Assembly (NCBI GenBank): GCA_947498025.1 | Contig: CANMJR010000031.1 | Coordinates: 1-33,400 of the forward strand | DNA length: 33,400 nucleotides | Source of the DNA: Helicobacteraceae bacterium | Lineage (GTDB): Bacteria > Campylobacterota > Campylobacteria > Campylobacterales > Sulfurimonadaceae | Direction: 5' to 3' | In this document: piece after piece, positions 6,494-27,678 of the stretch | Layout of the letters: every line of letters starts with the position of its first letter | Numbering within the stretch: position 1 is the stretch's first letter | Notes under the pieces: model-generated | What the model was told of the DNA's origin: nothing | The model's input: only the letters and a program-made list of their open reading frames with translations | The model's database searches: none | Program-made: the position numbers and the translations under genes

Positions 6494-6835
6494 TTACTCT
6501 AACTCTAACTGCATCAAAAACATATCTTCCCCGTCAAGCACATCAAGTTCCGTGCTTTTACATGTAGGACAGCAGTATTGTATCTTTTGCAAAACTGCTT
6601 CATTTGAACAGTTGTTGCACCTGACTAGTATTGGCTGAATATTGATTATCAACTCAGCTTCTTCACAAATTGTTTTTTCTTTAAATGTGTCAAAGGCAGT
6701 TTTTAAAAGCTCTGGCTCGACACCGCTCATCACGCCTATTTTTATTACGACTTTGGTTACTTTTGTAGCGTTGTTTTGTGCGGCGTTCTCTTCACATGAG
6801 TCTAAAAGCGACTGGACTATACTGTATTCATGCAT
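6494..6835 (-). CDS. hypA: Hydrogenase nickel-insertion chaperone HypA
   Basis: This 113-residue protein has the family's normal length and the N-terminal MHE needed for nickel binding through His2. A structural zinc site is made by two CxxC pairs, CNNC at 73-76 and CPTC at 89-92. HypA works with HypB to deliver Ni(II) to the hydrogenase large subunit after the iron unit has been installed. In Campylobacterota such as Helicobacter, HypA can also serve urease, but no urease genes are in view. It is the last gene of the minus-strand maturation operon; its start lies one base beyond the hypX stop, implying translational coupling. The 3' side is bordered by the IS256-family element. Confidence 0.95.
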
Positions 6836-10447: not shown

Positions 10448-11955
10448 TTTTCTAACTCTTCCAATCTTTTTGCCAAATTTTCCATATCAGATTTTATTTT
10501 ATCAATCTCATCAACTTTAGATAATCTTTTACTGTCAAGCATTCTTTGAAGTTGATTTTTTATAACAGGTTCACCAATAATATTTAAAAGTTTTTGAGCT
10601 TCATCATTATCTTTGATGCTTGACTCTTTATCATTGAGATAATTTATAACATCTTCTATCTTACCTTTCGCAAACTCACCCATAAGCCCATCTTCCATAA
10701 AAAAACCGTGAGAAAGTAAAGTGTGGATATTTGCTCCGAAAGTTTCAATCTTAGTTTCATCATTCACATTTTTACAATTACCAGTTTTTTTATCTTTTTC
10801 TAAAAATATGATATTTTTTTTCGATAAATCTGAGAGTAAAAATGGAGAATGAGTTGCAAAAATAAAATGATATTTTTTAGGTATCTTTTGCAGTAAGTTG
10901 ATTATTTCATTTAAATATTGCTTTTGCCATTGAGGATGTAACGCTATCTCTGGCTCATCAAATAAAAATAATAATTCTTCATTTGCATTTATGTAAAAAA
11001 ATATACTTAGAAGTTGAGAAAAAATAACTTTTTCTCCATGACTTAAATGATTATATCTTCTCTCTTTTTCATCAATAAAATCAAATTCAAAATAATGCCA
11101 ATAATCTTTATGAAAATAAATATTTTTTTGTTCTTGAGACATCTTGGATATTTCATATTCTTTCATTGTTGCTACAGTCATGAAAAAAGTTTTGAAATCA
11201 TTTTGTGACAAAGAAGTAGTTGTATTTTGTATTAACAACTCTTTATCACTAAGTATATTAGAATTAACATCTAAGCCTTTTTGCTCAATATAGCAAATCG
11301 ATAAATACTGATGATATAAATCAGTTATTGCTTTTAATATTTTTTCTATTTCATCAGACTTTTTAAAATTAAGTAAAGATATATGTTCTTGAATAAGTTT
11401 GTCATAAGATTTTAATGAAATTTCTACTTTTACTGGTTCATACATAAATGAAGAAATATGAAAAGAGTTCATACTGTCTTGCTTGGCAGAGAGTATATTC
11501 ACAATTCCTTGTTTTTCAAGTGTAAAATAACGTAAATTCGCAGAGCTATAATATCTTGCTCGATGTATTTTTTTATCTGAAACATAATATTTATAAACCA
11601 ATGAACAAATGTCACTAAATACAACTTCTTCGCTAATGGAAGTACTCATCACAATATTGGAGATATACAAAGGCACTTCTTTATGATAAACTAAAACATA
11701 TTTAAATTCATCTAACTCTTGTCCATTATCTGCTAATATTATTTTTTCAAGACATTCTAAAATCCTACTCTTCCCACTCCCATTCTCCCCCACAATAGCA
11801 GTAATATTAATATTTGGAGGAAAGATACTTACATGTTCTTTTTTATCAATAGTTAATTCACCATCTTTATACTTACATGTAAATCTCGGCGAAAAGTTAA
11901 ACCCTTGATTTTTTATATTTTTATACTCTTCTACCCAAAGATATACTAACTCCAC
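10444..11955 (-). CDS. ptuA: AAA/ABC-type ATPase of a Septu-like (PtuA-type) defence pair
   Basis: This 503-residue SMC/OLD-like ATPase has Walker A GENGSGKS at 56-63, an ABC signature LSHGEK at 304-309, Walker B LLFLFDEPE at 328-336 and an H-loop ATHS at 367-370. The long insert between Walker A and the signature is helical and variable, as in PtuA and other defence ATPases. No TOPRIM nuclease domain follows, which argues against a full OLD nuclease; the nuclease is instead the downstream overlapping HNH gene. A coiled-coil-like charged tail occupies about the last 60 residues. It would sense a phage-related cue or ATP level and control its partner nuclease. The gene lies inside the hyp operon on the same strand and is visibly more A+T-rich than hypD or hypE. 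Confidence 0.8.
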   Translation of the reverse strand: MELVYLWVEEYKNIKNQGFNFSPRFTCKYKDGELTIDKKEHVSIFPPNINITAIVGENGSGKSRILECLEKIILADNGQELDEFKYVLVYHKEVPLYISNIVMSTSISEEVVFSDICSLVYKYYVSDKKIHRARYYSSANLRYFTLEKQGIVNILSAKQDSMNSFHISSFMYEPVKVEISLKSYDKLIQEHISLLNFKKSDEIEKILKAITDLYHQYLSICYIEQKGLDVNSNILSDKELLIQNTTTSLSQNDFKTFFMTVATMKEYEISKMSQEQKNIYFHKDYWHYFEFDFIDEKERRYNHLSHGEKVIFSQLLSIFFYINANEELLFLFDEPEIALHPQWQKQYLNEIINLLQKIPKKYHFIFATHSPFLLSDLSKKNIIFLEKDKKTGNCKNVNDETKIETFGANIHTLLSHGFFMEDGLMGEFAKGKIEDVINYLNDKESSIKDNDEAQKLLNIIGEPVIKNQLQRMLDSKRLSKVDEIDKIKSDMENLAKRLEELEK

Positions 11956-12001: not shown

Positions 12002-12289
12002 TCATAATTTAGGCAAATTCTCTCTAAAAATCACCAATATTTCTATCTGCGTGTCAGAAACACTGTAAATTATGGAGTATCCTTGATAGACAAGTTTTCT
12101 GGTGTTTGGGGCGAGTTCTTCGGTGGGTCTTCCTGATTTTGGAAAGTTTGAGAGCGTTTGGATGATGTAGTTTTTCATCTTATCCAAGTACCTGTCGGCT
12201 GCTTCCTCATTTTTAGTTTGTTCAAAAATATATTTTGCCTGTTCCACTAAGTTCAAAACAGCAGTTTTTGAAAAAACTATTTTATGCAC
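12002..12289 (-). CDS. RelE/ParE-family toxin
   Basis: The start is chosen at GTG (12287-12289), which overlaps the antitoxin stop codon; the protein is then about 95 residues beginning MHKIVFSKTA, the normal ParE/RelE length. A longer reading from 12319 is open but would overlap the antitoxin by 38 bases. The fold pattern is typical: an N-terminal strand, two helices (about LNLVEQAKYIFEQ), the LSNFPKSGRPTEEL loop, then KLVYQGYSIIYSV and a final strand IEILVIF. ParE toxins poison gyrase and RelE toxins cleave mRNA on ribosomes; the sequence alone does not separate them well. It is paired with the Phd/YefM-type antitoxin directly upstream and forms part of the island in the hyp operon. Confidence 0.82.
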   Translation of the reverse strand: MHKIVFSKTAVLNLVEQAKYIFEQTKNEEAADRYLDKMKNYIIQTLSNFPKSGRPTEELAPNTRKLVYQGYSIIYSVSDTQIEILVIFRENLPKL

Positions 12290-12536
12290 GATAGGAGTTC
12301 TTTGCTGTCTCAAAAGCATCGTCGATGTCTAAAAAGTCGCCCTTTTGAATCTCTTTTATGGCATTTTGAACATCTTGTTTTATTTTGGCATGTGTGGCAT
12401 TGTATTCATCGAGTGAAATGATGACGACCAACTTGTTGTTTTTCGTCGTCACTATCACCTCTTCATTGTTCTCACACACATCTTCTATGATGCTTTTCAA
12501 ATTATTTCTAGCACTTGTGTAGTTTAACGCCTGCAT
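12282..12536 (-). CDS. Phd/YefM-family antitoxin
   Basis: This 84-residue protein begins MQALNYTSARNNLKSIIEDV and then EEVIVTTKNNKLVVIISLDEYNA, the standard Phd/YefM DNA-binding N-terminal domain. The C-terminal tail (about 55-84) is charged and would wrap the toxin. It precedes and overlaps the RelE/ParE-family toxin. An AAAGG ribosome-binding site and a perfect 7-bp inverted repeat with a -10-like TACAAT lie just upstream, as expected for an autoregulated toxin-antitoxin operon. The pair probably stabilises the inserted defence block or supplements it. Confidence 0.85.
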   Translation of the reverse strand: MQALNYTSARNNLKSIIEDVCENNEEVIVTTKNNKLVVIISLDEYNATHAKIKQDVQNAIKEIQKGDFLDIDDAFETAKNSYRA

Positions 12537-12625: not shown

Positions 12626-13768
12626 TTATACCAAATTCCCATACTTATAATACGCAGCACACGCGCCCTCTGAGCTTACCATACAGCTTCCAACGGGTGA
12701 AGTCGGTTTACATGCAGTGCCGAAAATGGTACACTCAGGGGGGTTTGCCATGCCTCTTAGGATGTCTCCGCAGATGCAAAGTTTGTGGTCTTCTATCTCG
12801 GCGATTGGAAGAATATCTTTGTATCTTGCCTCTGCATCATACTCTTTAAATTCAGGCTTTAGTTTTAATCCACTTTTTGGGATATTTCCTAAACCTCTCC
12901 ATTTAAAGAGGTCTCTTTTTTCAAAATATTTGTTTATAAGTTCTTGCGCTTTGACGTTTCCATCGTAAGTAACGAGCCGTTTATATTCCACTTCAAGCTC
13001 GCATCTGCCACTTATAAACTGTTTAACTATCATGCTGATTGCCTGCATGACATCAACCGGCTCAAAACCCGAGACAACCACGGGACGGTTATAATCCCTG
13101 GAAAACTCCTCGTAGATTTTACTTCCGCTTATAACACTTACATGTGAGGGTCCTAAAAATGCGTCTATTTTGTTGTTATAACTATCTACATGTATATCTC
13201 TGCTATCTATCAGCTCACGCATTACTTCGGGAACCGTTACATGGTTTATATGAAAAAAGATGTTTTGGATGTTTTGTTTTATGACCGCATCAAGAAGTGC
13301 CGCTGTCATCGGCGTAGTCGTCTCAAATCCTATGGCAAAAAAGATGATTTTTTTAGTTGGATTCTCTTTTGCAATCTTTAGGCATTCTAAAGGAGAATAG
13401 ACAAAACGAACATCTGCACCCTTGCTTCTTGCAGTTTGCAGACTTCCGTTGCTTCCGGGTACTTTTATCATATCGCCTAGAGTCACAAGTATCACATCCG
13501 GCTGCATACTTAAAACATAGGCATGGTCAATTCTCTCTTTTGGCATGATACAAACCGGACAGCCAGGACCGTGGATAAACTTGATGTTTGAGGGCAAAAG
13601 CTGAGGAAGACCGTACTTCATAATAGTATGCGTATGACCGCCGCAGACTTCCATAATGTTTATAGGATTTTTCAGCTTTGCTGCGTCCTCTTTTATGATT
13701 TTTGCATAAGCTTTTATGGTGTCTGCATCTCTAAAATCATCATAAAGATTTTTAAGTTCTAAAGCCAT
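12626..13768 (-). CDS. hypD: HypD: Fe-S scaffold protein for Fe(CN)2CO assembly
   Basis: This 380-residue protein has all HypD signatures: MEVCGGHTHTIMKYGL (about 39-54) and GPGCPVCIMP (about 67-76). The cysteine-rich C-terminal segment binds the [4Fe-4S] cluster (CICGDILRG, NPPECTIFGTACKP, GSCMVSSEGACAAYY). HypD with HypC holds the iron atom while HypE supplies cyanide and a CO source supplies carbonyl. The gene starts two bases after the hypC stop. It is no longer followed by hypE but by the toxin-antitoxin and Septu-like genes, so the maturation operon has been split at this point. Confidence 0.97.
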   Translation of the reverse strand: MALELKNLYDDFRDADTIKAYAKIIKEDAAKLKNPINIMEVCGGHTHTIMKYGLPQLLPSNIKFIHGPGCPVCIMPKERIDHAYVLSMQPDVILVTLGDMIKVPGSNGSLQTARSKGADVRFVYSPLECLKIAKENPTKKIIFFAIGFETTTPMTAALLDAVIKQNIQNIFFHINHVTVPEVMRELIDSRDIHVDSYNNKIDAFLGPSHVSVISGSKIYEEFSRDYNRPVVVSGFEPVDVMQAISMIVKQFISGRCELEVEYKRLVTYDGNVKAQELINKYFEKRDLFKWRGLGNIPKSGLKLKPEFKEYDAEARYKDILPIAEIEDHKLCICGDILRGMANPPECTIFGTACKPTSPVGSCMVSSEGACAAYYKYGNLV

Positions 13769-13769
13769 T

Positions 13770-14060
13770 TTAGACTTCTCTATTTGAACATTCGTCTGCT
13801 TCTAAAATCGCAAGTTGCCTATCCTCTTCGTTCATAGCATCTATAATTTCTCTATAAAGCTCCAAACTCTCCAATGCTTCTTTTTCATCGATTTTGTTCA
13901 TCACAAATCCGATATGCAGAAGTACATAATCGCCTATTTTTATCTCTTCTTCACTCATCAAAGATAAAGAAGCATCTCTTTGCACACCCATAGTATCTAC
14001 CGTTGCTATCTCATTCTCTTTGTCTATTTTTACTACTTTTGAGGGTATTGAAAGGCACAT
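13770..14060 (-). CDS. hypC: HypC/HupF-family hydrogenase maturation chaperone
   Basis: This 96-residue protein begins MCLSIPSKVV, the invariant N-terminus in which Cys2 holds the iron unit, and continues with the small beta-barrel block IATVDTMGVQR and IGDYVLLHIGFVMNKID. HypC binds HypD during ligand assembly and then carries the Fe(CN)2CO unit to the hydrogenase large subunit. The start codon shares one base with the stop codon of hypB, and hypD follows at once, so the three are tightly coupled. The tail after about residue 75 is acidic and slightly long for the family. Confidence 0.96.
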   Translation of the reverse strand: MCLSIPSKVVKIDKENEIATVDTMGVQRDASLSLMSEEEIKIGDYVLLHIGFVMNKIDEKEALESLELYREIIDAMNEEDRQLAILEADECSNREV

Positions 14061-14848
14061 TATCTCATCTCCATTTTAAACTTGATCCACTCGGAAACTT
14101 TTTTTATCGAATTCACTTCTTTTGTGCTGACTTCAAGTATGTCAACACTCGGTTTTAGCTTTCTTGCCATATATTTTTCTTTTTCAATATCATACTCAAA
14201 ATAGGGAAGCAAGTCTGTTTTGGTAAATAAAATCAAATCTGCCTGACGAAACATAACCGGATATTTAGCTATTTTGTCTTCGCCCTCAGGAATACTTACA
14301 AGCACTATGTTTAAGTGGCTTCCGACATCATAACTTGCAGGACAGACGAGATTTCCGACATTCTCTACGAAACATACGTCCATATTGTCCAAATTCATGT
14401 GATGCAGAGCTTTATGAACCATAAATGCGTCCAAATGACAAGCCGAACCTGTTTGAATCTGATGAGCTTCTATTCCTTTTGCTTTTAGTCTATCTGCATC
14501 ACGGCTTGTCTCCAAATCGCCCTCAACAACACCAAATTTAAAATCAGCTAAATCCGACAAACTTTCCAGAAGTGTAGTTTTTCCGCTTCCTGGGCTGCTC
14601 ATAAGGTTTATGCACAGAACACCGTGAGAGTTAAAATGCTCACGATTATGCTGTGCCTCTTGGTCATTTTTATCTAAAATTTTCGTAATTACAGAGATGG
14701 TTTTAGGGTCGTTTAGCTGTGGATTGTCATGCAAATGTTTATGAGTTTTTTGATGTTCATGAGAATCTCCGTGATGATGCTCGTGTGAATGGCTCTCTTT
14801 GTGAGAGTGACTATGTTCTACAATGCTGCAACCGCAATCTTTACACAT
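14060..14848 (-). CDS. hypB: HypB: nickel-binding GTPase
   Basis: This 262-residue protein starts MCKDCGCSI, the high-affinity CxxCGC nickel motif. A histidine-rich stretch of about 35 residues follows (SHSHKESHSHEHHHGDSHEH), which can store nickel. The GTPase domain has P-loop SSPGSGKTTLLE, the metal-site ACHLD, DVCFVENVGN and the guanine-specificity TKTD. HypB gives nickel to HypA or directly to the large subunit in a GTP-dependent way. The His-rich region is longer than in Helicobacter HypB, which suggests a nickel-storage role as in Bradyrhizobium HypB. The gene follows the nickel permease by 37 bases. Confidence 0.97.
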   Translation of the reverse strand: MCKDCGCSIVEHSHSHKESHSHEHHHGDSHEHQKTHKHLHDNPQLNDPKTISVITKILDKNDQEAQHNREHFNSHGVLCINLMSSPGSGKTTLLESLSDLADFKFGVVEGDLETSRDADRLKAKGIEAHQIQTGSACHLDAFMVHKALHHMNLDNMDVCFVENVGNLVCPASYDVGSHLNIVLVSIPEGEDKIAKYPVMFRQADLILFTKTDLLPYFEYDIEKEKYMARKLKPSVDILEVSTKEVNSIKKVSEWIKFKMEMR

Positions 14849-14885: not shown

Positions 14886-15527
14886 CTATCCGATTAACAT
14901 GTTAGAGCCGACAGCTACCGAAACGACTCCGGTAGTTGCAAAAACCCTTCTTAAGTTCTGTTTTGTGTTTAGCAGATTTTTATTTATATAGAGTATAACG
15001 ACTCCAAAACTTACAAATATACTCATGACTCCAAGCGTGAAAGCCAAAATCATTACAAAATCAACACTCTCTCCATCGATTACTCCGAGCGTTATAAGCA
15101 TGCCTCTAACTCCGCCTATACCCATCAATGTTCCTATAGTAAAGGCGGAAGCCGTGTCTGCGTCGTCGTGAACATGCTCTTTACCAAAAAAAATATGAAG
15201 ATGCTCTTTGCCCTCATGCATATGTTTTTTCAACCCGATTCTATCTGTGAAAACCATAAACAGAAGATATACGCCGATGCCGATAATCACCAATGACGAG
15301 ATAAGGTCTCCGTATCCTAAAATAGTCTCGCTTATATGATAACTCTCTAATATTTTTGCAAAAACAAAAAGAGATAATCCATGTCCGAGGGCGAAGAGCG
15401 CAGTAATGAGCATTGTTTTCTTTGTGTTTTTGCCGATTGAAAAATCTGCAATAGCCGTAAGATGATCAGGCCCAAAAGCATGCAATACACCGTACCAAAA
15501 AATAAGTAACAATCCGACATTTTCCAT
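14886..15527 (-). CDS. Nickel permease (NiCoT/NicO-like) linked to hydrogenase maturation
   Basis: This 213-residue membrane protein shows about six hydrophobic segments and the signature HAFGPDH at 16-22 (HX4DH), diagnostic for nickel/cobalt permeases. A second conserved GHGLSLF lies in the next helix, and a short His-containing loop (KKHMHEGKEHLHIFFGKEHVH) faces the cytoplasm or periplasm. It would import Ni(II) for the hydrogenases and shares the operon with hypB. It is shorter than classical NiCoT proteins (about 330 residues) and closer in size to NicO/UreH-type permeases. A TGAATA-GG-TATTCA dyad lies just upstream of its start. Confidence 0.85.
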   Translation of the reverse strand: MENVGLLLIFWYGVLHAFGPDHLTAIADFSIGKNTKKTMLITALFALGHGLSLFVFAKILESYHISETILGYGDLISSLVIIGIGVYLLFMVFTDRIGLKKHMHEGKEHLHIFFGKEHVHDDADTASAFTIGTLMGIGGVRGMLITLGVIDGESVDFVMILAFTLGVMSIFVSFGVVILYINKNLLNTKQNLRRVFATTGVVSVAVGSNMLIG

Positions 15528-15626: not shown

Positions 15627-16301
15627 ATGCTAAAATATGCCATGGAATGTATTTACTGCAATAATAAAAAGTTATATCACTTAAATTCAGGTCAACTTAA
15701 ATGCTCAAACTGCAAAAAAAAGTTCTCTGTAAAAAAAATAGAGAAAGATTTGAAAATTATTGAGTGTTTCTGCAATGATTTGAACATAAATGAAGTAAGT
15801 AAAAAACTTGACATCAACTATGTAACCGTAAAAAAGAGATATGACCTTTTTAGACAGCTCATAGCAAGCCGCTTAGAAGATGAGTTCAAAGATAAAACGG
15901 TCATTGAGTATGATGAGTATATTTACCTTGAAAAAAGCAAAAGAGACATAAAAGAGAATATATTTGATGCACAAAATTTTTTAACATTTCATTATGACAA
16001 CAAAATTTACAACCTGCTTATGCAAAATCTCAACATGTATAAAAATCAGTTTATGGATGATGGAGCGGATGAAGCCTACTTCAAAGAGTTTTCAAAATAT
16101 ATGATGTGTAACAAAATTTCAAAAATACAGAAAAAAGAGAACCTTATAACCAGGTTCTGGATTTTTTTTGAAAAATCTATTTTGAAATATAAGGGAGTAA
16201 GGCACGAGAACTTTTTTTACTACTTGAAAGAGATTGAGTTTAAGTTTAACTACTCCAAAGAGATGCAAGAAAATTTTTTAATAGATTTTTATAAGGAATA
16301 A
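15627..16301 (+). CDS. Zinc-ribbon/HTH protein of transposase-like build, possible regulator
   Basis: This 224-residue protein has an N-terminal zinc ribbon (CIYC at 8-11, CSNC at 26-29) followed by KKKFSV and a helix-turn-helix stretch (LNINEVSKKLDINYVTVKKRYDLF, about 52-75). This layout matches the front of IS1595/InsA-type transposases. The remaining 145 residues are helical and Lys/Phe/Tyr-rich, and I cannot find a DDE catalytic core; the protein is also too short for a full transposase. No terminal repeats flank it. An AGGA lies about eight bases upstream of ATG 15627. The position divergent to the nickel permease suggests a regulator derived from a transposase, but this is inference. 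Confidence 0.6.
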   Translation: MLKYAMECIYCNNKKLYHLNSGQLKCSNCKKKFSVKKIEKDLKIIECFCNDLNINEVSKKLDINYVTVKKRYDLFRQLIASRLEDEFKDKTVIEYDEYIYLEKSKRDIKENIFDAQNFLTFHYDNKIYNLLMQNLNMYKNQFMDDGADEAYFKEFSKYMMCNKISKIQKKENLITRFWIFFEKSILKYKGVRHENFFYYLKEIEFKFNYSKEMQENFLIDFYKE

Positions 16302-16352
16302 ATTAAATTTTATATACTATGTTTAACTTATTTAAAATTATGGAAAATTATT

Positions 16353-17081
16353 ATGACTGAACAAGAAAAACATGATATTTTGCAAAAAGCTAAAAAATGG
16401 TTTAAAGAATCAATAGCAGAAAACCACATTAAAAATACATTGAAACTCTCCGATATCAACCAGTTCAATGTCAACCCATTTTTATTAACATATCTATCAA
16501 ACTTTTTAGAAGGCAATCATGACCCTATTAGTATCGCCAAGGCATTAATATATCCTAGAGTCCTTGGTACATCAATAAGTACATCTTTTGGAACAAATAT
16601 TCAAAAGTTCACATCAACGGTATTATCATCGTATGGTAGTACAACTTCTGGCATAGATATTGAGTTCATTGATATGATTGACGGTGAAAAAAAATATTGT
16701 CAACTTAAATCAGGACCAGAAACAATCAATAAAGATGATGTGGAAACTATAGCTAAACATTTTACTGATGTCATAAATCTATCTAAAGCCAATGGAATAA
16801 AAATAGGTTTTAGTAATTTAATAGTTGGTATTATATATGGAGAAGTGCATGAGATAAACGCACACTACAAAAGAATTTCTAAACAATATCACTACGATAT
16901 TGTTGTTGGAAATGATTTTTGGCATAGATTAACAGGTGATGAAAATTTTTATACTGACCTAATCAAAGCTATTGCAGAGGTAGCAATTCAAGCCGACTTT
17001 AAACACGAACTCGACAGTGTGATCAAAGAACTTTCAAAATCAGAATATATACAAAATTTATCTTCAGAGCTAAATTCTTAA
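16353..17081 (+). CDS. Type II restriction endonuclease, Eco47II/Sau96I-like
   Basis: This 242-residue protein has a PD-(D/E)xK-like core: GSTTSGIDIEF (Asp102) and then KYCQLKSGP (Gln117-Leu-Lys119), a Q-for-E variant seen in several type II enzymes. The conserved LTYLSNFLEGN and FGTNIQKF segments and the overall length resemble the RE_Eco47II family, whose members cut GGNCC-type sites. The cytosine-5 methyltransferase gene 120 bases downstream on the same strand completes the system. The cut site cannot be fixed from sequence alone. The low G+C of both genes and their opposite orientation to the hydrogenase operons suggest acquisition by transfer. Confidence 0.78.
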   Translation: MTEQEKHDILQKAKKWFKESIAENHIKNTLKLSDINQFNVNPFLLTYLSNFLEGNHDPISIAKALIYPRVLGTSISTSFGTNIQKFTSTVLSSYGSTTSGIDIEFIDMIDGEKKYCQLKSGPETINKDDVETIAKHFTDVINLSKANGIKIGFSNLIVGIIYGEVHEINAHYKRISKQYHYDIVVGNDFWHRLTGDENFYTDLIKAIAEVAIQADFKHELDSVIKELSKSEYIQNLSSELNS

Positions 17082-17200
17082 ATAAATATGACATTTTGCA
17101 ATACTCTTTTCAATACAAATATAACTAAAGTATACTATTAACCTAAGAATGCATATGTTATAATAACCATGTATAATGTTGAGTAAGGTGGGTATTTGTT

Positions 17201-18439
17201 TTGATTGGAAGAACTTTTTCATTAAATGAGACGGCGGAAATTTTATCTATTAGTAAAGAGACTTTAAGAAGGTGGGATAACTCCGGCAAGTTAAGGAGTG
17301 TCCGAAATCCTATAAATAATTATAGAGAATATAAACAAAATGATTTAATAATTTTTGAAAATGCAAAGATTCATTTTGATACAAAATCTTATACAAATGT
17401 ATCTTCAACTAAAACATATAAAAGTATTGAATTGTTTGCCGGAGCAGGTGGACTTGCTTTAGGACTTGAAAAAGCAGGGATAAAACATGCTTTATTAAAT
17501 GAGATTGATAAATATGCAGTTCAAACTCTTCAAAAGAATAGACCACATTGGAAAATTGAGGAAGGTGATATAGCTAAAATTGATTTTAAACCTTACAAAG
17601 ATAAAATAGACTTATTAACAGGTGGCTTTCCATGTCAAGCATTTAGTTATGCCGGAAAACGATTGGGTTTTGAAGATACAAGAGGAACTTTATTTTTTGA
17701 ATTTGTAAGAGCACTGCAAGAAACAAATGCACCTGTATTTTTAATAGAGAATGTAAAAGGCTTATTAAGTCATGATAATGGTAAAACTCTACAGACAATG
17801 ATAGATGTTCTTACCAAAGATATGGATTACCACATCTTTAAACCAAAAGTTTTAAAAGCAATTCACTATAGAGTCCCTCAAAAGCGAGAGAGACTAATCA
17901 TAGTCGGTATCAAAAATGATTATAAAGATAAAGTAACTTATAACTATCCTGAACCTCATAAAAAAATATATACCTTAAAAGATGCCTTAAAAAAAGGTGC
18001 ATTATATGATACTGATGTCCTTCCTTCTCCCGGACAAATCTATCCTAAACGAAAAAAAGAAATTTTGGATATAGTACCACCTGGAGGATATTGGAGAAAT
18101 TTACCACTTGATATTCAAAAAGAATATATGCAAAAAAGCTTTTATCTTGGCGGAGGTAAAACCGGGATGGCAAGAAGAATTTCTTGGGATGAACCTAGTT
18201 TAACATTAACTTGCTCACCGGCGCAAAAGCAAACGGAAAGATGTCATCCTGATGAAACTAGACCTTTTCAAATTAGGGAATATGCTAGAATTCAAACTTT
18301 TCCGGACAATTGGATATTTGAAGGTTCACCATCACAACAATACAAGCAGATTGGTAATGCAGTTCCAGTCAATTTGGCAGAAGAAATTGGTTACACCCTT
18401 ATTCAATTATTAAATGACATTTATTCAATTAATAATTGA
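17201..18439 (+). CDS. DNA (cytosine-5) methyltransferase with N-terminal HTH
   Basis: This protein of 412 residues starts at TTG (17201), with AAGGTGGG about eight bases upstream. Residues 1-50 form a MerR/excisionase-like helix-turn-helix (SLNETAEILSISKETLRRWDNSGKL). The methyltransferase domain starts near 75 with motif I ELFAGAGGLALGLE, motif IV GGFPCQAFS (catalytic Cys145), motif VI ENVKG (183-187), motif VIII VPQKRERLIIVG and motif X GNAVPVNLA near the C-terminus. It would methylate cytosine in the site cut by the enzyme upstream. N-terminal HTH domains in such enzymes (for example M.SsoII) can repress their own operon, and a rare start codon would limit expression. The fused HTH may therefore replace a separate controller protein. 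Confidence 0.9.
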   Translation: MIGRTFSLNETAEILSISKETLRRWDNSGKLRSVRNPINNYREYKQNDLIIFENAKIHFDTKSYTNVSSTKTYKSIELFAGAGGLALGLEKAGIKHALLNEIDKYAVQTLQKNRPHWKIEEGDIAKIDFKPYKDKIDLLTGGFPCQAFSYAGKRLGFEDTRGTLFFEFVRALQETNAPVFLIENVKGLLSHDNGKTLQTMIDVLTKDMDYHIFKPKVLKAIHYRVPQKRERLIIVGIKNDYKDKVTYNYPEPHKKIYTLKDALKKGALYDTDVLPSPGQIYPKRKKEILDIVPPGGYWRNLPLDIQKEYMQKSFYLGGGKTGMARRISWDEPSLTLTCSPAQKQTERCHPDETRPFQIREYARIQTFPDNWIFEGSPSQQYKQIGNAVPVNLAEEIGYTLIQLLNDIYSINN

Positions 18440-18456: not shown

Positions 18457-18897
18457 CTTATACGTTAACATAAAGATTGTAAAGCATAATAAGTCTCCCC
18501 AAAGCTATTCCGCTGTCATTGGTAGCCTTTTCTTGCTGAAAGTAGCACTTAATTTTCTCTTGTTTTAACTCTTGACATGTAAGCTCAAGCAGGATTCTGT
18601 TTTGAAAAACTTCGCCGCTTAAAATCACTTCAAGTTTTTTCGTTTTGAGATATCTATTATAATTTTTACGAGCGTATTTACTAACATGAAGTTTAGTTCT
18701 TTTTTTCCGGCTTGCTCTTTAACATGTACTCTGTTATTTTTATCTCAATTACGCCCTCTTTTATTGCGTAATCAAAATATTTTTCTATGTTTTTGTGACA
18801 AAACCCGCGAGTTTGAAATCTAGTGCCGACTTATAAACAAAAGGACGAAATCCAACATCTTGGACTTGTCCTTTTATAAGATATTTGTATCTTCTTA
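18457..18897 (-). pseudogene. hypF: hypF remnant (carbamoyltransferase), internally deleted and frameshifted
   Basis: Reading the minus strand from just after hydE gives an acylphosphatase-domain start (YLIKGQVQDVGFRPFVYK) ending at a TAG (18785-18787). Another frame then gives YFDYAIKEGVIEIKI, the next GAA...LVNTLVKIIIDISKRKNL, and a last frame VILSGEVFQNRILLELTC then ATNDSGIALGRLIMLYN up to a TAA at 18457. These match the extreme N-terminus and the last ~145 residues of HypF in order. HypF is normally about 750 residues, so roughly 1.7 kb (zinc fingers, YrdC-like domain and most of the Kae1-like domain) is missing, and at least three frameshifts are present. HypF makes the carbamoyl group for the cyanide ligands. 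The 5' end overlaps hydE; no ordinary start codon is in frame. Its position after hydE is where an intact hypF would be expected. Confidence 0.88.
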
Positions 18898-20562
18898 AAG
18901 CAATTCATTTCCGCCATATAAAATATTTTTTCCATCTACGGGCAACTCTTTATTGAAGTATAACTTATGATTTACAAAAACTTCTTTGCTAAGTTTGCTA
19001 AAAAGATGTCTATTTTGTAAAAGTGAACCCGTTACAACCACCGCGTCACTCTTCATCTCCTCTTTTATCTCATCAAGCTGTGATGAGATAAACTCCACAA
19101 AACTCTCAATAACTCCGTAACTAAGCGTAAGCTGATCAACCTTCGCCAGTTTAAAACTCATCGCAGTTCTGATTGTCATCAAGGGATCCAAATAAACCTT
19201 GTTCTTAATACTTTTTAGTTTATAGTCTATGCGAGGTCCTTTTGTTCCCAAAAATGAACTCGCGCTCTCTTCAAGAATTTTTGCAGACTTGGCAAGACTT
19301 CTCTCTTTGGAGTAACCTAAAATGATAGAAACTAAACCCCAAAGTTTGTAAACGTTAAACTCTTTTTCATCAAATACTATGGCAGATATTATTTCAAAAT
19401 GCTGTGGAAATTTGTCTTTAAAGTTCTCTACAAGCTTCTTTCCTGTGTCATTTGTGTTTACTATGGAATCAAGCACATCTTTTATTGAGCTGAAGTTAAA
19501 TGCAAATGAGAGATACTCAATAGTACCGAATTTTTTAGAGTAAACTAAAATGTCATTGTGGTACTCTTTGGAGATATTTACGCCTGCTACGGTTTTTTCA
19601 AGCAGATAATGCTCTTTTATAACCGAGAAAAAAGCCCCGATATGTGGAATCAAAGTTTTATTTTCAAGATTATTGTACGGCAGACCTTTTTCGCCTTTTA
19701 GTATGGCGATATGATTATCACCTACTACAACCTCGATTGGCTCCGACTCTTTTTTGTACTCCACCAAATCAAACCTAACATCAAAAGGAAGTTTCTCTTT
19801 TGTAATAAAAATAAAGTTGATTCCGAGTTTGTTAAGCTCGCTGAGCAAAAGATGCGAAACAAAATCATCAGGGAGTTTAAAACGGATAAGCTCATCTGTA
19901 ACATCTTCAAAATCCATTTTAAATTTAATGTTCGTCTTTAACTTTACAAAAGGTTTCTCGATAGCCCCCATTGCTGCAATTTCACTATTTGTAGCGTTTG
20001 TGTAGTGTGCTACCGTTCCCAAAGCATGACAGAGAATATCAAAATCAACGCCGTTAAACTTTTTACCCTGCATGCCAAGGAAATATTTTCCGTAAAAAGT
20101 GTTTACTTCAACTACCGAACCATCGCTTATTGATTTTGCAAGATTTACAAAATTCTCCTTATAGCTCTTTTTTTCACCCACAACCGAGTATCCGCAGACT
20201 TCACACTCATGAAAAATATTGTAATAGTTCTCATTTGATTCATCCATAACTTCACCTAAACATTGCGGACAAAAAGGGATATCAGGTTTTGGCTCATTGA
20301 CTAAAACAAAAGAGCCTTCGGGTATCTCATCTACGACTTTGACATTTGTTTCATGTAAAAAAATCGAGTGAGGCAGTTCTAGCGATAATTTATCTGCAAA
20401 ACGCTCCAATTCGTCACTCTCATCTGATTCAACATACAAAAATAGTTCGTCACCGTCTCTTAGTATTTTTGATTTCAATGAAAACTGTTTTACTGTTCTT
20501 TCAATTATTTTTTTATAAACCAAAGATGAAGACAAATAGTTGAATGAAAATTCCAAAATCAT
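18895..20562 (-). CDS. hydE: HydE: HypF-like hydrogenase-associated protein
   Basis: This 555-residue protein is the last of the five genes in the Wolinella-type hydABCDE order. It resembles a degenerate HypF: a zinc-finger-like pair CPQC (98-101) and CEVC (120-123), a middle region alignable with the YrdC-like part, and a C-terminal VVVTGSLLQNRHLF (about 508-521) that mirrors the HypF VILSGGVFQNR block. The HypF HHHAH metal motif is not visible, nor is the acylphosphatase VQGVGFRP, so carbamoyltransferase activity is unlikely. In Wolinella and Helicobacter, hydE is linked to hydrogenase activity but its biochemical role is not settled. The start overlaps the hydD stop by four bases. Confidence 0.85.
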   Translation of the reverse strand: MILEFSFNYLSSSLVYKKIIERTVKQFSLKSKILRDGDELFLYVESDESDELERFADKLSLELPHSIFLHETNVKVVDEIPEGSFVLVNEPKPDIPFCPQCLGEVMDESNENYYNIFHECEVCGYSVVGEKKSYKENFVNLAKSISDGSVVEVNTFYGKYFLGMQGKKFNGVDFDILCHALGTVAHYTNATNSEIAAMGAIEKPFVKLKTNIKFKMDFEDVTDELIRFKLPDDFVSHLLLSELNKLGINFIFITKEKLPFDVRFDLVEYKKESEPIEVVVGDNHIAILKGEKGLPYNNLENKTLIPHIGAFFSVIKEHYLLEKTVAGVNISKEYHNDILVYSKKFGTIEYLSFAFNFSSIKDVLDSIVNTNDTGKKLVENFKDKFPQHFEIISAIVFDEKEFNVYKLWGLVSIILGYSKERSLAKSAKILEESASSFLGTKGPRIDYKLKSIKNKVYLDPLMTIRTAMSFKLAKVDQLTLSYGVIESFVEFISSQLDEIKEEMKSDAVVVTGSLLQNRHLFSKLSKEVFVNHKLYFNKELPVDGKNILYGGNELL

Positions 20563-21104
20563 AGAGTGCCCTTTAAATAGGTGTATTTTGAAACTTCTTC
20601 TAAGGATATATTATTTTTTATTGAAACATTAACTCCAAAATCTTCGATATATTTGATAATGACCCGTTCCATGGTATGACTCGCTTTTAAGACTTCCTCA
20701 GTCATTGAAAAGGTGCTGTTTTCTCCGATTACATAAGGAATGACACCCACTATTTTAGTTGGAGGCAAATCGCCTAGCATCTCAATCATCTGCAGCGTCT
20801 GAAGCATTTCAACCTCATGCGCACTGCCGTTCCATGTTATACACTCTGGCACATCATTGAAATCAAAACTGTACACATCACCTATATTTCCATCTATCAC
20901 ATTTACACAATCTATCAGTAAAACATTGTCATATTCTGTAATAATAGGTATCAGTCTCTGCGCCAATGTTCCGCCGTCAAGGACATCTACAACATGTTTA
21001 CTTGACACAAATTCATACTTTTCATCAATTAAATTTGCCAGATGCGCACCAATGCCCTCATCTCCAAAAAGAATGTTACCGATTCCAAGAACTAAAATTT
21101 TCAT
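20559..21104 (-). CDS. hydD: HydD: hydrogenase maturation endopeptidase
   Basis: This 181-residue protein of the HyaD/HybD/HupD family begins with VLGIGNILFGDEGIGAH, in which Glu16 is one nickel-probing ligand. The other two are likely Asp65 in LLIDCVN and His96 in GSAHEVEM. The conserved DGGTL block (43-47) is present. The protease removes the C-terminal peptide of HydB after His554 once nickel is bound, allowing the active site to close. It lies 17 bases after hydC and overlaps hydE, consistent with one hydABCDE transcript. Confidence 0.93.
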   Translation of the reverse strand: MKILVLGIGNILFGDEGIGAHLANLIDEKYEFVSSKHVVDVLDGGTLAQRLIPIITEYDNVLLIDCVNVIDGNIGDVYSFDFNDVPECITWNGSAHEVEMLQTLQMIEMLGDLPPTKIVGVIPYVIGENSTFSMTEEVLKASHTMERVIIKYIEDFGVNVSIKNNISLEEVSKYTYLKGTL

Positions 21105-21121: not shown

Positions 21122-21823
21122 CTAGTGTTTTTTATGCCATTTCATTCCGCTAAAAATTGCATCTATCGTACCTTCTTTACCAAAAATAGCATTATATACT
21201 GCCATATATACATGTCCGAGTATAAATAAAATAACACCCCACATTAGTACATGATGCAGTTGTCTTACAAAAGCAAGACCTCCTAACATAACCTCTATTG
21301 ATCTCATCGGCTCATACAAAAATCCGCCTAAGCTTTCATGATATACATGTATATAAAGGATAAGACCTGTTGTAATTAATCCAAATACCATAATGTAAAA
21401 TCCTACATATGCCAAAAACTGCATAGGATTATATATGCCGCTTAATTTTGGGTGTTTGCATATAAGTAAATAATACCCGATTTGCTGAATCCAAATTTTT
21501 ATGTCAAAAACATCTTTTAAAGCTTTTCTCTCTTCTTGATGTTTTTTTCCAAATAAAAAAAGATAGCTTTTTAGAAGAATTACTGATATTAATACAAACC
21601 CAAAGATTATATGCCAACTTCTAAAAAGTGCATACATAAAGTTTGTGGGTTCTGCACTTGGTACAGGAGTTATAATAGGCACTGCTATATAAAATCCTGT
21701 CGCAATCAGCACCACTATCGACAAAGCTCTAACCCAATGCTGTAATCTATAGAGTGCCGAAAATTCCATCTCTTGTTTTGTACAATTTTCTTCTTGCGAA
21801 GTTTTTTCATATGTGATATTCAT
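21122..21823 (-). CDS. hydC: HydC: cytochrome b subunit of membrane-bound hydrogenase
   Basis: I set the start at ATG 21823 (MNITYEK), because a strong AGGAGG lies just upstream after the hydB stop; an in-frame start at 21850 would overlap hydB. The protein of 233 residues has four main hydrophobic helices, with candidate haem b ligands in LQHWVRAL, RSWHIIFG, YIHVYHES and LHHVLMWG. It anchors HydAB to the membrane and passes electrons from H2 to menaquinone. Its neighbours hydB and hydD fix its identity. In Wolinella the matching subunit is a di-haem quinone reductase. Confidence 0.93.
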   Translation of the reverse strand: MNITYEKTSQEENCTKQEMEFSALYRLQHWVRALSIVVLIATGFYIAVPIITPVPSAEPTNFMYALFRSWHIIFGFVLISVILLKSYLFLFGKKHQEERKALKDVFDIKIWIQQIGYYLLICKHPKLSGIYNPMQFLAYVGFYIMVFGLITTGLILYIHVYHESLGGFLYEPMRSIEVMLGGLAFVRQLHHVLMWGVILFILGHVYMAVYNAIFGKEGTIDAIFSGMKWHKKH

Positions 21824-21837
21824 AATATTACCTCCTT

Positions 21838-23571
21838 TTATACGCTGCATCCGCCATAGAGTGGATCTATTTTATATTCACTCAGTGTTTTGCCCTTTGT
21901 GTCCATAACATGTACAGCACATGCAATACATGGATCATAAGAGTGAATAATCCTGATTATCTCAAGCGGCTGTGTTAAGTCTTGTATTTTAAGACCGATT
22001 AAATCAGCTTCGTAAGGTCCTTTTGCACCTTTAGCATCCATTGGTCCTGCATTCCAAGTTGAAGGAACAACTGCTTGATAATTTTCAACAACACCGTTTT
22101 TAATTCTAATCCAGTGGCTAAGCATTCCTCTTGGAACATCACCTATGCCTCTGCCTTTATATTCTTTGTCTTTATCTATAGTGTACGTTGCACAAGTTTC
22201 TTGATCAACTTTCAGGTTTTCAATCAAATTATTAAAAGCTACAAGTGCATTGTCTGCAATAAGTTTCGCCTGCAACATTCGCCCTGCTGTTCTTCCCAGA
22301 GTTGAAAAAAGAGCCGCTGCAGGAACACCTGTTTTAGCCAGAAAATCATTTACTACTTTTACCGCTTTTTTGTTTCCTTTTGCATAACTGACTAACATAC
22401 ATGCTAAAGGACCGACTTCCATAGGCTCGCCTTTGTATCTTGGCGATTTAATCCAGCTGTACTTCTCTTTTTCGTTTATCATTTTCGAATGAACCATTTT
22501 GCCATCTGGTCCTACGGTATCGCCATCAATAAAACCTGTATAGTTTGGATTTGTTGTACCGTCATAAGGGTGTTGCGGCGCATTATCTTTATACCAGGAG
22601 TGAGTAGCCTCTTCAGTTATCATATCTTCATCAATCTCAAAAACCTTACTAAGGTCTCCGTTCATAATAATTCCGCTTTCAAAAAGATAGTCATTTCTGC
22701 CAACCATCATATCTTGATGTGCCATAAAATTTTTGACACCCATAGGCTTCATAACCGAAGGCTCAGTTTTATACATCTCTGCCGCCATTACAATATCTGC
22801 ATAGTAAGCGTTGTTTACAAAATCTGCTATTTCTTGATACTTCACTAAGTATTCACCCATTCTTGCCGGATTTAAAAGATCCATAACACAAGTAACTCCG
22901 CCGACTGCCAAGCTTTGAGGATGCGGATTTTTACCGCCGAAGATTGCCATCATCTGTGCTACCGTTCTTTGAATTTCAAGTGCCTTTAGGTAGTGTGAAA
23001 GCGCAATAAGATTTTGTTCAGGTGTGAGTCTGAATGTTTTGTGTCCCCAGTATGCATTGGCAAAAGGTCCAAGTCCTTGAGGATTTTTGGCAAATTTTGC
23101 TACTTTTTCTTTTACTTTTTTAAGCTCATTTTCGCCGGTACCAATCGGATTGTCTGTATATTGAAATGCCAACTTGCTCGCTTTTGCTTCATCGGCTGAG
23201 AGTGCTGAGACGATATCAACCCAGTCAACACCGTGAAGATGATAAAAATGAACAACATGGTCATGTAAAAAAAGAGCCGCATTCATAAGGGTTCTTACCA
23301 GTTCCGCATTGTAAGGAATTTTAATACCAAGTGCATCTTCTACAGCCATTGTACTTTTTAAATAGTGCGAGTATGTACAAACGCCGCAAATTCTCTGCAT
23401 CATAAGCGGTATATTTCTCGGATCACGACCTTTAGCTATTACCTCAAGACCTCTCCATAGAGTTGAAGAGACAAAAGCATCCTGAACTACTCCGTCATCT
23501 CCAACAATTACTTCGGCTCTTAAATGTCCTTCTATTCTTGTTATTGGATCTACTATTACTCTTTTTGACAT
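21838..23571 (-). CDS. hydB: HydB: [NiFe]-hydrogenase large subunit (group 1)
   Basis: This 577-residue protein has the N-terminal nickel motif RICGVCTYSH (60-69; Cys62 and Cys65) and the C-terminal DPCIACAVH (546-554; Cys548 and Cys551). It is followed by a 23-residue tail, VMDTKGKTLSEYK..., that HydD would cut off after His554. TRIEGHLR near residue 11 is the other family hallmark. It holds the Ni-Fe(CN)2CO site that splits H2, on the periplasmic side after co-export with HydA. It sits 10 bases after hydA and matches the Wolinella/Helicobacter uptake hydrogenase in length. Every expected ligand is present. Confidence 0.97.
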   Translation of the reverse strand: MSKRVIVDPITRIEGHLRAEVIVGDDGVVQDAFVSSTLWRGLEVIAKGRDPRNIPLMMQRICGVCTYSHYLKSTMAVEDALGIKIPYNAELVRTLMNAALFLHDHVVHFYHLHGVDWVDIVSALSADEAKASKLAFQYTDNPIGTGENELKKVKEKVAKFAKNPQGLGPFANAYWGHKTFRLTPEQNLIALSHYLKALEIQRTVAQMMAIFGGKNPHPQSLAVGGVTCVMDLLNPARMGEYLVKYQEIADFVNNAYYADIVMAAEMYKTEPSVMKPMGVKNFMAHQDMMVGRNDYLFESGIIMNGDLSKVFEIDEDMITEEATHSWYKDNAPQHPYDGTTNPNYTGFIDGDTVGPDGKMVHSKMINEKEKYSWIKSPRYKGEPMEVGPLACMLVSYAKGNKKAVKVVNDFLAKTGVPAAALFSTLGRTAGRMLQAKLIADNALVAFNNLIENLKVDQETCATYTIDKDKEYKGRGIGDVPRGMLSHWIRIKNGVVENYQAVVPSTWNAGPMDAKGAKGPYEADLIGLKIQDLTQPLEIIRIIHSYDPCIACAVHVMDTKGKTLSEYKIDPLYGGCSV

Positions 23572-23581: not shown

Positions 23582-24736
23582 TTATTCTTTTGGGTTTTTA
23601 ACTGATGATATCGCCGCGTGTGCCGCTATACCGATCGCAGTAACAGTAAGTAATCCTAATCCGATTTTATCTGCTGTTGCATCGGCACCGAGTCCTCCAA
23701 ATACAGTATGATAAAGTCTATCGCCAAGCGGTTCATGAACGATTCCCATTTTATCCCAGAAATCAGGCTCACTGCATCCCATACAGCCATGTCCTGCTTG
23801 AACAGGCCAAGATGTACCCTGATTAAACTTCTGTTTTGAGCAGTTGTTAAATGTGTACGGTCCTTTACAGCCTACTTTATAAAGACAGTAACCCTCTTTT
23901 GCACCTTCATCTCCAAACTCTTCCACAAATTCACCTGCGTCAAATCTTCCTCTTCTCTCACATGCATCATGGATTCTGAGTCCGTAAGCCCATTTTGGTC
24001 TATTGTAGGCATCAAGAGCAGGAAGAGTTCCGTATAAAATAAAGTGCAATAGCGTTCCAACAATATTGCTCTCACTCGGAGGGCATCCCGGTACATTTAT
24101 AACCGGTCTGTCTGTTACATTGCTGAGCGCCGTTGCATTTGTAGGATTTGGATATGCCGCTTGTACACCTCCAAAAGACGAACAAGTACCGATAGCAAAA
24201 ATTGCGGCAGCATTTGCAGAAGCTTCCTTCGCACTTTGCTCGCCCGTTTTACCGTGAGCACCGACTGTTAAAAAATAATCACTCTGACCGTGAGGAATTC
24301 CGCCTTCAACCATCAAAATATATCTGCCTTTATATTTTTCCATGGCATGTTCTAAATTTTGCTCAGCCTGCCAACCTGCAGCTGCCATTATCGTTTCATG
24401 ATATTCTAGTGATATATAGTCAAATATCAGACTGTCAATACTCGGGGTCGCTGATCTTAGTAAAGATTCACTGCACCCTGTACATTCAGCCATATGCAAC
24501 CAAACTAAAGGAAGTCTGTCAGCCATTTCAGCTGCCTTGGCGACTAATGGGGTAAAGCTTGCCGGCAACATTAACATAGATGTCATCGCTCCAGCCCAAC
24601 CCATAAACTCTCTTCTGGAAAAACCTTTCTCTTCAATTAACTTTGAGATTGATACTTCATCATCAAGCTTAGGTAAATTTGATAACTCATCCAGCCTAGA
24701 AGACAATTTGTTAAACAAACTATTATTATTCTTCAT
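23582..24736 (-). CDS. hydA: HydA: [NiFe]-hydrogenase small subunit with Tat signal
   Basis: This 384-residue protein has a twin-arginine signal (SRREFMGWAG at about 39-48, then a hydrophobic stretch to VAKAA), so the folded HydAB pair is exported by Tat. Cluster ligands are visible: ECTGCSES and GTCSSFGG plus PGCPPSES for the proximal [4Fe-4S], then CERRGRF, GYCLYKVGCKGP and NNCSKQKFNQG for the distal and medial clusters, and GCMGCSEPDFWD. A C-terminal hydrophobic helix (about 355-375) anchors it to the membrane beside HydC. The proximal ligand set is the standard, not the O2-tolerant six-Cys one. AAGGGAG precedes the ATG at 24736, and the gene leads the operon. Confidence 0.96.
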   Translation of the reverse strand: MKNNNSLFNKLSSRLDELSNLPKLDDEVSISKLIEEKGFSRREFMGWAGAMTSMLMLPASFTPLVAKAAEMADRLPLVWLHMAECTGCSESLLRSATPSIDSLIFDYISLEYHETIMAAAGWQAEQNLEHAMEKYKGRYILMVEGGIPHGQSDYFLTVGAHGKTGEQSAKEASANAAAIFAIGTCSSFGGVQAAYPNPTNATALSNVTDRPVINVPGCPPSESNIVGTLLHFILYGTLPALDAYNRPKWAYGLRIHDACERRGRFDAGEFVEEFGDEGAKEGYCLYKVGCKGPYTFNNCSKQKFNQGTSWPVQAGHGCMGCSEPDFWDKMGIVHEPLGDRLYHTVFGGLGADATADKIGLGLLTVTAIGIAAHAAISSVKNPKE

Positions 24737-25544: not shown

Positions 25545-26426
25545 ATGAAAAAGAAAATGAGAGTATTATGGCTCAGCGCAATCGCTTGCAACGGCAATAC
25601 CCACTCATTTTTAAACTATCCGTATATAGAACAATTTTTAGATGATTTTGAGTTTATTTATCACCCGGTGATAGATTCTCATTACACGCTTGAAGATATC
25701 GTTTCAAAAAAAATACCTTGTGATGTTTTACTGATTGAGGGCGCAATCTCAAAAGAGTTTAAAAGAGTCGATGTCTCTGTTGTCGATATAATCGAAAAAT
25801 ATTCCAAAATAGTCCAAAAAATAGTCACAGTCGGTACATGTGCAACTTTTGGCGGAATTTTTAGAGAGAGCGGTTATGAAGAAACTTCCGGAATGCATTT
25901 TGACCAAGACAAACCATCACAAAAATTTCAGGACTTGATTGATAAAACTATATCTGTCTCAGGATGTCCTGTTCATCCCGAAGTTTTGGTAAACACCCTT
26001 TACGCCATTAAAAAAGAAGCTATATTAAAACTGGACAACTTTTTAAGACCAAAAGAGTTTTATGCATATACAATTCATAACGGCTGTACGAGAAACGAAT
26101 ATTTTGAATACAAAGTGGATAACCACCGTTTTGGAGAGTTGGAGGGATGTATGTTTTACGATCACGGCTGTCAAGCGCCGTTTACCCACGGAAGCTGTAA
26201 CAAAGTGCTGTGGAATGAAGTAAACTCAAAAACCAGAGCAGGGCTATCGTGCATGGGTTGTACGGAACCTACCTTTCCAAAACAAAATCTTTTCAGTACG
26301 AAAAAAAATATGGCAATACCTGAAAATCTCCCCGTTGGTGTGGGCAAAAGAGTCTATCTTACTTTAGCAGGTATTTCTAAAGCATTTAAAATTGATAGAT
26401 TAGAAAAGAAGCTGTTTGATGATTAA
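25545..26426 (+). CDS. hupS: Second [NiFe]-hydrogenase small subunit (group 2-like, cytoplasmic)
   Basis: This 293-residue protein has no Tat signal or membrane helix, so it stays in the cytoplasm. The proximal-cluster motif reads ACNGNTHSFLN (from about residue 14), with Asn18 in place of the second Cys of the usual CxGC. The same CxGNTxSFLN form occurs in cyanobacterial HupS. Further ligands: GTCATFGG, SGCPVHPE, HNGCTRNEYFE, EGCMFYDHGCQAPFTHGSCNKVLWN and LSCMGCTEPTFP. It is therefore a group 2-like uptake or H2-sensing small subunit rather than a membrane respiratory one. It follows the TetR gene by two bases and overlaps the large-subunit gene. Confidence 0.9.
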   Translation: MKKKMRVLWLSAIACNGNTHSFLNYPYIEQFLDDFEFIYHPVIDSHYTLEDIVSKKIPCDVLLIEGAISKEFKRVDVSVVDIIEKYSKIVQKIVTVGTCATFGGIFRESGYEETSGMHFDQDKPSQKFQDLIDKTISVSGCPVHPEVLVNTLYAIKKEAILKLDNFLRPKEFYAYTIHNGCTRNEYFEYKVDNHRFGELEGCMFYDHGCQAPFTHGSCNKVLWNEVNSKTRAGLSCMGCTEPTFPKQNLFSTKKNMAIPENLPVGVGKRVYLTLAGISKAFKIDRLEKKLFDD

Positions 26427-27678
26427 ACTAATAGAAAAAATAGAGGGCGAGGCGAAACTCAACTTTAATTTTAAAGAGGGCAAGATTGATTTTGTTGACA
26501 TAGAGTTTATGTCGACAAGAAATATTGAAAATATTTTAAAAGGCAAGAATGCTTTTGATGCGCTTGTAATAAATCCAAGAGTCTGCGGAATTTGCGGTCA
26601 TGCTCATCTTATAGCTACCGTTCAGGCCTTAGAGAGTTGCTATGATAATTTGAAGCTTTCAAACAAGGCGAAGATTATAAGAGAATTAACGCTTAGTTTT
26701 GAGCTTATCCAAAACCATTTTAAGTGGTTTTATCTCACAATGCTACCTCTTTTTGGGCATAAACAGCAGATATTAAAAGCTACGTATCCTTCTCAGCTTA
26801 TGGGAAAAGCCATTGCACTCTTCGGTGGACAGTATCCGCATACTTCTTACGCAGTTGTCGGCGGGGTGGTTTGTGAAATAACAGAGATGGATATTATAAA
26901 ACTGCAACTTTATATAGCCCAGACAGTCAAGTTTGTGGAAGATAATCTTGTAAAAACAGAAAGTGAGAATTTTTTAACATGTAAAGATGCGGATGCTCTT
27001 TTGGATTATGAGGGAGATTTGCCTGACATACTGAGACAGATAAAAAAAGATGGGTTTTTAGAGCATGGAAAAAGTTATGACAGATTTATATCTTTTGGGC
27101 AGAACAGCTACTTTAAAAAAGGCAAATCGCTAAAAACAAAAGTAATTCACAATATTTCCGTATTACATGTCAAAGAGTCTGAAATGCCTTCATCGTTTGC
27201 AAAAAATGTAAGCTTTAAAGATAAATATTACGAAGTAGGTCCACTCGCTCGTGCTATGGTGAACAAAACACCGCTTGTAACAGATGCTCATAAAAAATAC
27301 GGCGACAGTATCTTTAGCAGAATACTAGCAAGAGTATGTGAGATATCCCAACTTTTACAACACTCAAAAAAACTTATTAAAGATTTAGATTTAAGTGAAG
27401 AGTCATATATTGAACCATCTATTGACATATCAAAACTAAGTTCCAGCGGATATTCTGCCGTAGAAGCTGCGCGCGGCACTCTTATCCATAAAGTTGAGAT
27501 AGAAAACGGAATGATAAAAAATTATGAGATTATTACGCCGACACAATGGAATCTAAGCGGCGGCACGAAAGAGAAGCAGGGAGTTTCACAAAAAGCCATG
27601 GTTGGTTTAAGCGATGTTAAAACTGCCGAACTTGTTTTCAAATCATTTGATGTTTGTTCCGTCTGCACTACCCAATAA
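26419..27678 (+). CDS. hupL: Second [NiFe]-hydrogenase large subunit, 3' end altered by IS junction
   Basis: The start is ATG 26419, overlapping the small-subunit stop, giving 419 residues. The N-terminal ligand motif RVCGICGHAH (54-63) is intact. The C-terminal motif reads FDVCSVCTTQ and stops: the nickel cysteines Cys413 and Cys416 are present, but Pro is replaced by Val and the usual terminal His is Gln. The final codons coincide with the start of the IS3-family remnant, whose coding frame on the other strand begins at 27668. Sensor-type group 2 large subunits end near this motif without a cleaved tail, so only one or a few residues may have been lost. If the family member normally has a tail, the whole tail is gone. 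Activity is uncertain. Confidence 0.85.
   Translation: MIKLIEKIEGEAKLNFNFKEGKIDFVDIEFMSTRNIENILKGKNAFDALVINPRVCGICGHAHLIATVQALESCYDNLKLSNKAKIIRELTLSFELIQNHFKWFYLTMLPLFGHKQQILKATYPSQLMGKAIALFGGQYPHTSYAVVGGVVCEITEMDIIKLQLYIAQTVKFVEDNLVKTESENFLTCKDADALLDYEGDLPDILRQIKKDGFLEHGKSYDRFISFGQNSYFKKGKSLKTKVIHNISVLHVKESEMPSSFAKNVSFKDKYYEVGPLARAMVNKTPLVTDAHKKYGDSIFSRILARVCEISQLLQHSKKLIKDLDLSEESYIEPSIDISKLSSSGYSAVEAARGTLIHKVEIENGMIKNYEIITPTQWNLSGGTKEKQGVSQKAMVGLSDVKTAELVFKSFDVCSVCTTQ

Follow-up and report, generated by a model that had tools for sequence, protein, structure and literature searches.

The window analyzed here is the whole of contig C31, a stretch of 33,400 bases in a 2.93-Mb draft assembly of 102 contigs whose completeness is given as 99.82% and contamination as 2.29%. 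The source is in all likelihood a Sulfurimonas. It carries the genes hydABCDE for a [NiFe] hydrogenase, a remnant of hypF, a type II restriction-modification pair, a set of hyp genes and a second [NiFe] hydrogenase, with mobile-element genes bounding this region on both sides (Table 1). The gene lying next to the hypF remnant is called hydE here. The membrane protein encoded upstream of hypB had no Pfam match and is a possible nickel transporter, and it occupies the same place in relatives. The gene order and the position of hypF are those of the Sulfurimonas hydABCDE-hypF-hypBCD-hypE(X)-hypA cluster, from which the window differs in that its hypF is broken and in that obgE is found on another contig, C13, rather than on C31.

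Table 1. Features of the window, with coordinates counted from its first base
Feature	Coordinates	Strand	Basis or remark
hydA, B, C, D, E, hydrogenase maturation and structural genes	24736 down to 18895	-	window C31
hydA, [NiFe] hydrogenase small subunit	23582..24736	-	Pfam NiFe_hyd_SSU_C and Oxidored_q6
hydB, [NiFe] hydrogenase large subunit	21838..23571	-	hydrogenase large-subunit model match
hydC, cytochrome b subunit	21122..21850	-	Pfam Ni_hydr_CYTB
hydD, hydrogenase maturation protease	20559..21104	-	Pfam HycI
hydE, intact, 555 aa, distant HypF-like protein	18895..20562	-	HypF_C_2, 28.9 bits
hypF pseudogene, 5' part, about codons 1-35, acylphosphatase domain	18796..18897	-	tblastn, orthologue alignment
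hypF pseudogene, 3' part, about the last 100 codons, several frames	18480..18795	-	tblastn, orthologue alignment
DNA cytosine methylase, type II restriction-modification pair	17201..18439	+	about 40 bases from hypF remnant
Restriction endonuclease, EcoO109I family	16353..17081	+	Pfam family match
Membrane protein, possible nickel transporter	14886..15527	-	nickel/cobalt efflux family, weak (18.8 bits against a cut-off of 195)
hypB	14060-14848	-	family match
hypC	13770-14060	-	family match
hypD	12626-13768	-	family match
hypE	8487-9485	-	family match
hypX	6836-8482	-	family match
hypA	6494-6835	-	family match
Second [NiFe] hydrogenase (small subunit 25545-26426, large subunit 26416-27678)	25545..27678	+	model matches
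IS256-type transposase gene	5059-6261		bounds hydrogenase region
Integrase-core fragment	27668-27943		bounds hydrogenase region

We compared the place after hydE in the 10 relatives' loci with the nearest hydE, 8 from Sulfurimonas and 2 from Helicobacteraceae, all of them metagenome-assembled; loci with weak HydE-like matches were omitted from the count. A full-length hypF follows hydE in seven (L037, L039, L040, L042, L043, L045, L046), hypF is open to the contig end in two (L038, L041), and one contig is too short, the position of hypF lying beyond it (L044). A broken hypF was seen in none of the 10. In relatives the end of hydE overlaps the start of hypF, and in L039 hypF lies after an insert of about 1.8 kb that contains another long frame.

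The window has a hypF pseudogene in this place, at about 18480-18897 on the minus strand and directly after hydE. A tblastn search of the assembly with its own intact HypF (described below) returned, besides the intact gene, four ordered pieces on the minus strand of C31 between 18488 and 18892. These correspond to HypF residues 3-39 (18782-18892, E 5e-5), 631-671 (18678-18800, E 0.002), 660-720 (18532-18714, E 4e-6) and 683-735 (18488-18646, E 8e-11), so that about the first 35 and the last 100 codons are retained. To the four nearest orthologues (L037, L038, L042 and the 5' part of L041), protein identity of the pieces in register is 68-94%, with values down to 46% for other orthologues. At the DNA level, identity is 82-88% to L009, L037, L038, L041 and L042, and 71-83% over longer pieces to L039, L040 and L043. 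The start codon has been lost (TTG to TTA), a conserved glycine in the acylphosphatase loop is replaced by aspartate (VQGVGF to VQDVGF), and three single-base deletions are each seen against all four orthologues compared. The joint of a large internal deletion, near 18795/18796, changes the reading frame. No single open frame carrying all HypF domains exists at 18480-18897; what is found there is both ends of the gene in order, in the relatives' position for hypF and with disabling changes. An earlier note on this DNA had described a decayed hypF with readable N- and C-terminal parts, and the tblastn pieces, orthologue alignment and lesions bear this out. Its large deletion is also real, although the size of about 1.7 kb given there should be nearer 1.8 kb (1,803-1,810 nt, the range depending on the orthologue used and on the assignment of a shared base). 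As for the remainder of the maturation set, which the note called complete, hypA, X, E, D, C, B and hydD in the window all have open frames and match the families expected of them.

In a draft of 102 contigs, a gap of 1.8 kb might reflect collapse during assembly of a gene that is whole in the cell, and the note had named assembly error as what would refute the decay. The lost start codon, the missense change in the conserved glycine and the three further single-base deletions all lie outside the large deletion, which makes such an error unlikely, and we regard a collapsed but whole gene as very improbable. The restriction-modification pair offers another conceivable cause, insertion into hypF with loss of the interior, as the end of the methylase gene lies only about 40 bases from the remnant. 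However, L040 has this pair, at 95% and 92% identity, directly after an intact hypF, and the deletion is internal to the gene with both ends kept. Insertion as the cause is thus largely refuted, and we give it hardly any weight.

The loss of hypF looks recent. In comparisons of the remnant's tail with four orthologues, 22 of 40, 22 of 42, 31 of 53 and 17 of 33 mismatches fall at third codon positions, while the six orthologue pairs have 17-27 of 31-44. The third-position share is therefore 52-58% for the remnant versus 55-67% among orthologues, slightly lower in the remnant, and a share so little reduced would point to a gene that stopped being read not long ago.

The assembly was searched for an intact HypF, and one full-length copy was found at C13:45543-47774, encoding 743 aa with no stop. 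It is the sole match to the HypF_C profile in the genome at E up to 0.001 and has Pfam matches to Acylphosphatase, two zf-HYPF, YrdC-like, HypF_C and HypF_C_2. It scores 740 bits against TIGR00143, well above the cut-off of 466 (466.1), and residues 6-737 align to the solved HypF structure 3vth. The translation carries GHHLAHIYA (HHxxH, which we take to be the Kae1-like metal motif), SGGVFQN (SGG) and NDGGIALGQ (NDGG). The gene is part of a second set on C13 comprising hypF, hypB, hypC, hypD, hypE and hypA near obgE, together with a maturation protease and a possible nickel transporter as in the window. C13 showed no hydrogenase structural subunit and no hypX. HypX, which provides the CO ligand from formyl-tetrahydrofolate, is thus present in the window set and absent from that of C13. 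C13 also encodes the one ObgE of full length in the assembly, the three other matches being partial, with identities of 33-43%; this argues for C13 as a part of this genome. Four genes in the assembly matched the hydrogenase large-subunit model, two each from the window and from C3; the second C3 gene scores better against the Complex1_49kDa model (181 versus 42 bits) and, judged by these scores, may be of the group-4 type. Both HypE copies, in the window and on C13, end in LLPRIC and have kept the C-terminal cysteine, the acceptor of the carbamoyl group from HypF according to PMC12134894.

The earlier note had left three ways out: that another hypF exists, that neither hydrogenase of the window can mature, or that cyanide is made in some other way. 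The full-length HypF on C13, with all its domains and the HHxxH motif, answers to the first. The intact HypF and the two HypE copies with their C-terminal cysteine give no support to the second or to the third, and a separate route to cyanide was rejected on these grounds. With an intact hypF elsewhere in the assembly, the remnant looks like a spare gene that has decayed in the ordinary way, rather than a sign of a new way to make the enzyme, and what seemed to be an exception to the HypF requirement of [NiFe] hydrogenases would disappear.

HydE has to be considered as a substitute for the HypF step in the window hydrogenases, since it has weak matches to HypF_C_2 and to TIGR00143. Its score against the latter, 31.6 bits, falls far short of the equivalog cut-off of 466.1, it matches none of the acylphosphatase, zf-HYPF, YrdC and HypF_C models at E up to 0.001, and in relatives it normally neighbors an intact hypF. 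We consider takeover by HydE scarcely credible. That the window hydrogenases obtain the activated carbamoyl group by way of HydE or another protein, their HypE being left unserved by HypF from C13, seems to us highly improbable as well. From its sequence, HydE looks like a degenerate relative of HypF.

The two hyp sets appear to have different histories. In five of the six genomes compared (G012, G032, G025, G021 and G004), hyp genes are found near obgE-proB-fmt-birA-parA, with another hydrogenase between the hyp genes and obgE in G004; G016 has no hyp gene in 12 kb around obgE. The C13 set lies near the same obgE neighbors as in the relatives. We used five housekeeping proteins beside the C13 set as a yardstick, and these are 75.4-78.7% identical to those of the six relatives. 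Pairs of relatives whose housekeeping proteins are 75-79% identical (G012-G032, G012-G025 and G012-G016) have hyp proteins that are 80-85% identical, and for G012-G004 the values are 86.5% and 94.6%. The C13 set fits this yardstick (81.6% to G012) and the window set does not, since its HypB, HypC and HypD together are 94.5% identical to L042, 93.4% to G012 and 92.8% to G004 versus 82.4% to C13. In small, unrooted trees with inner supports down to 31, C13 groups with G016 in both the hyp (support 99) and the housekeeping (97) data, and the window set groups with L042 (support 87). By these sequence comparisons, the window set is nearer to the sets of other lineages than the housekeeping genes would predict, which suggests that the window cluster was probably acquired by transfer and that its hypF was redundant; the alternative would be mis-binning of the contig.

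A contig from a different, co-sampled Sulfurimonas strain placed in the assembly by mistake would also meet every relationship used to argue for transfer. The window coincides exactly with one contig and has genes similar to those found in other lineages, and contamination is given as 2.29%. Its G+C content of 34.16% is just under the lowest of 22 own stretches longer than 15 kb (34.17-37.7%), and its transposase gene and transposase fragment are unmatched in the 443,927 own bases compared. The only window matches in those bases (E up to 1e-8) are the C13 hyp genes, the C3 hydrogenase genes and an ATPase/HNH relative on C1. On the other hand, an acquired cluster would give the same appearance. 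Tetranucleotide distances to the genome's own centroid (11.4 and 9.1 for the two halves of the window, 7.9 for its hyd part, versus 5.1-9.7 for the 22 own stretches) have little power, same-genus relatives giving 7.9-11.7. A Sulfurimonas paralvinellae plasmid has an annotated hypF beside a protein weakly resembling HydE, and hyp genes thus occur on extra elements in the genus. We judge mis-binning unlikely, although it is the chief caveat on our reading. A plasmid origin of the window was also considered and rejected: megablast of positions 5000-28000 against a plasmid collection returned one record, whose best place covered 6% of the query at 80% in the IS256 transposase stretch, and tblastn of HydE against plasmids found one plasmid at 22% identity.

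The reading that we prefer, and hold to be quite probable, is that the remnant comes from a redundant hypF, broken not long ago, in a cluster acquired by a genome that has the C13 set. A hydrogenase-plus-hyp cluster would have come from another Sulfurimonas lineage into a recipient whose chromosome carried its own hyp set beforehand, in the customary place close to obgE. As one of two hypF genes, the window copy would have been free to decay, losing its start codon, 1.8 kb of its interior and single bases. HypF from C13 would then carbamoylate the C-terminal cysteine of each HypE, including, we infer, that of the window, and most likely it acts in trans to provide cyanide ligands for the [NiFe] hydrogenases of the genome. 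The direction of transfer and the order of these events are likewise inferred. It would give a naturally occurring example of maturation genes probably mixed after gene transfer, with one HypF serving the HypE of two lineages. Among the papers listed for hypF in Sulfurimonas, Campylobacterota, Wolinella HydE, C. necator and pseudogenes, no title named this case.

Duplication of hyp genes in Cupriavidus necator was reportedly described by Wolf et al. in 1998. The duplicated genes of C. necator H16 include a hyp set with a reduced HypF, the HypF1 there keeping one of three domains, and the canonical HypF of Escherichia coli takes over the function of HypF1 in a heterologous system, as stated in PMC9100943. 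By analogy, this replacement would support action of the C13 HypF on the window HypE. Unlike the window hypF, which has no usable frame, HypF1 is still a protein and may work at higher oxygen (PMC9100943).

We surveyed 60 genomes, the present one (G000) counted in, and found a HypF match in 43 and a HypC match in 37. Two hyp sets also occur in G021, where two HypF matches are full-length and two contigs carry hypE, hypX and hypA; in the hypC search of the 60 genomes, only G000 had two copies. HypC without a HypF match was seen in two genomes, G013 and G040, and a search with HypF_C at E up to 1 gave nothing in either. G013 is 88% complete and its hyp contig ends inside hypB. G040 (L073, L074, L077), of the same order and 99% complete, has hydABCD, a hydE-like gene (28% identical), hypB, hypC and hypD, with the nickel-transporter-like gene directly after the hydE-like gene, and a protein search at E up to 1e-5 found no HypF. 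This assembly has about 170 contigs, so that a gap can explain the missing HypF; the alternative is a true absence. For the question of hydrogenase maturation without HypF, G040 is more promising than the window.

Two places in these clusters vary in content. Between hypF and the nickel-transporter-like gene (window 15627-18439; L040 11902-14127; also L037 and L042) there is a restriction-modification pair, a 224-aa protein without a Pfam match, both, or nothing. After hypD, a PDC-M62/Septu-like ATPase and HNH pair is found in the window (9512-11955) and in L043 (14983-17561), and a 232-aa protein without a Pfam match and a histidine phosphatase are found on C13 (L002 16326-17524) and in G004 (L071 1594-2754). 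In the window, hypD is separated from the ATPase/HNH pair by a gene for a ParE-type toxin (12002-12319), to which a gene in G004 (L071) is 91% identical. The window hydC is 57% identical to that of L037, though the hydB genes of the two are 98% identical, and it is 77% identical to the partial hydC of L046; going by these identities, hydC has perhaps been replaced by recombination.
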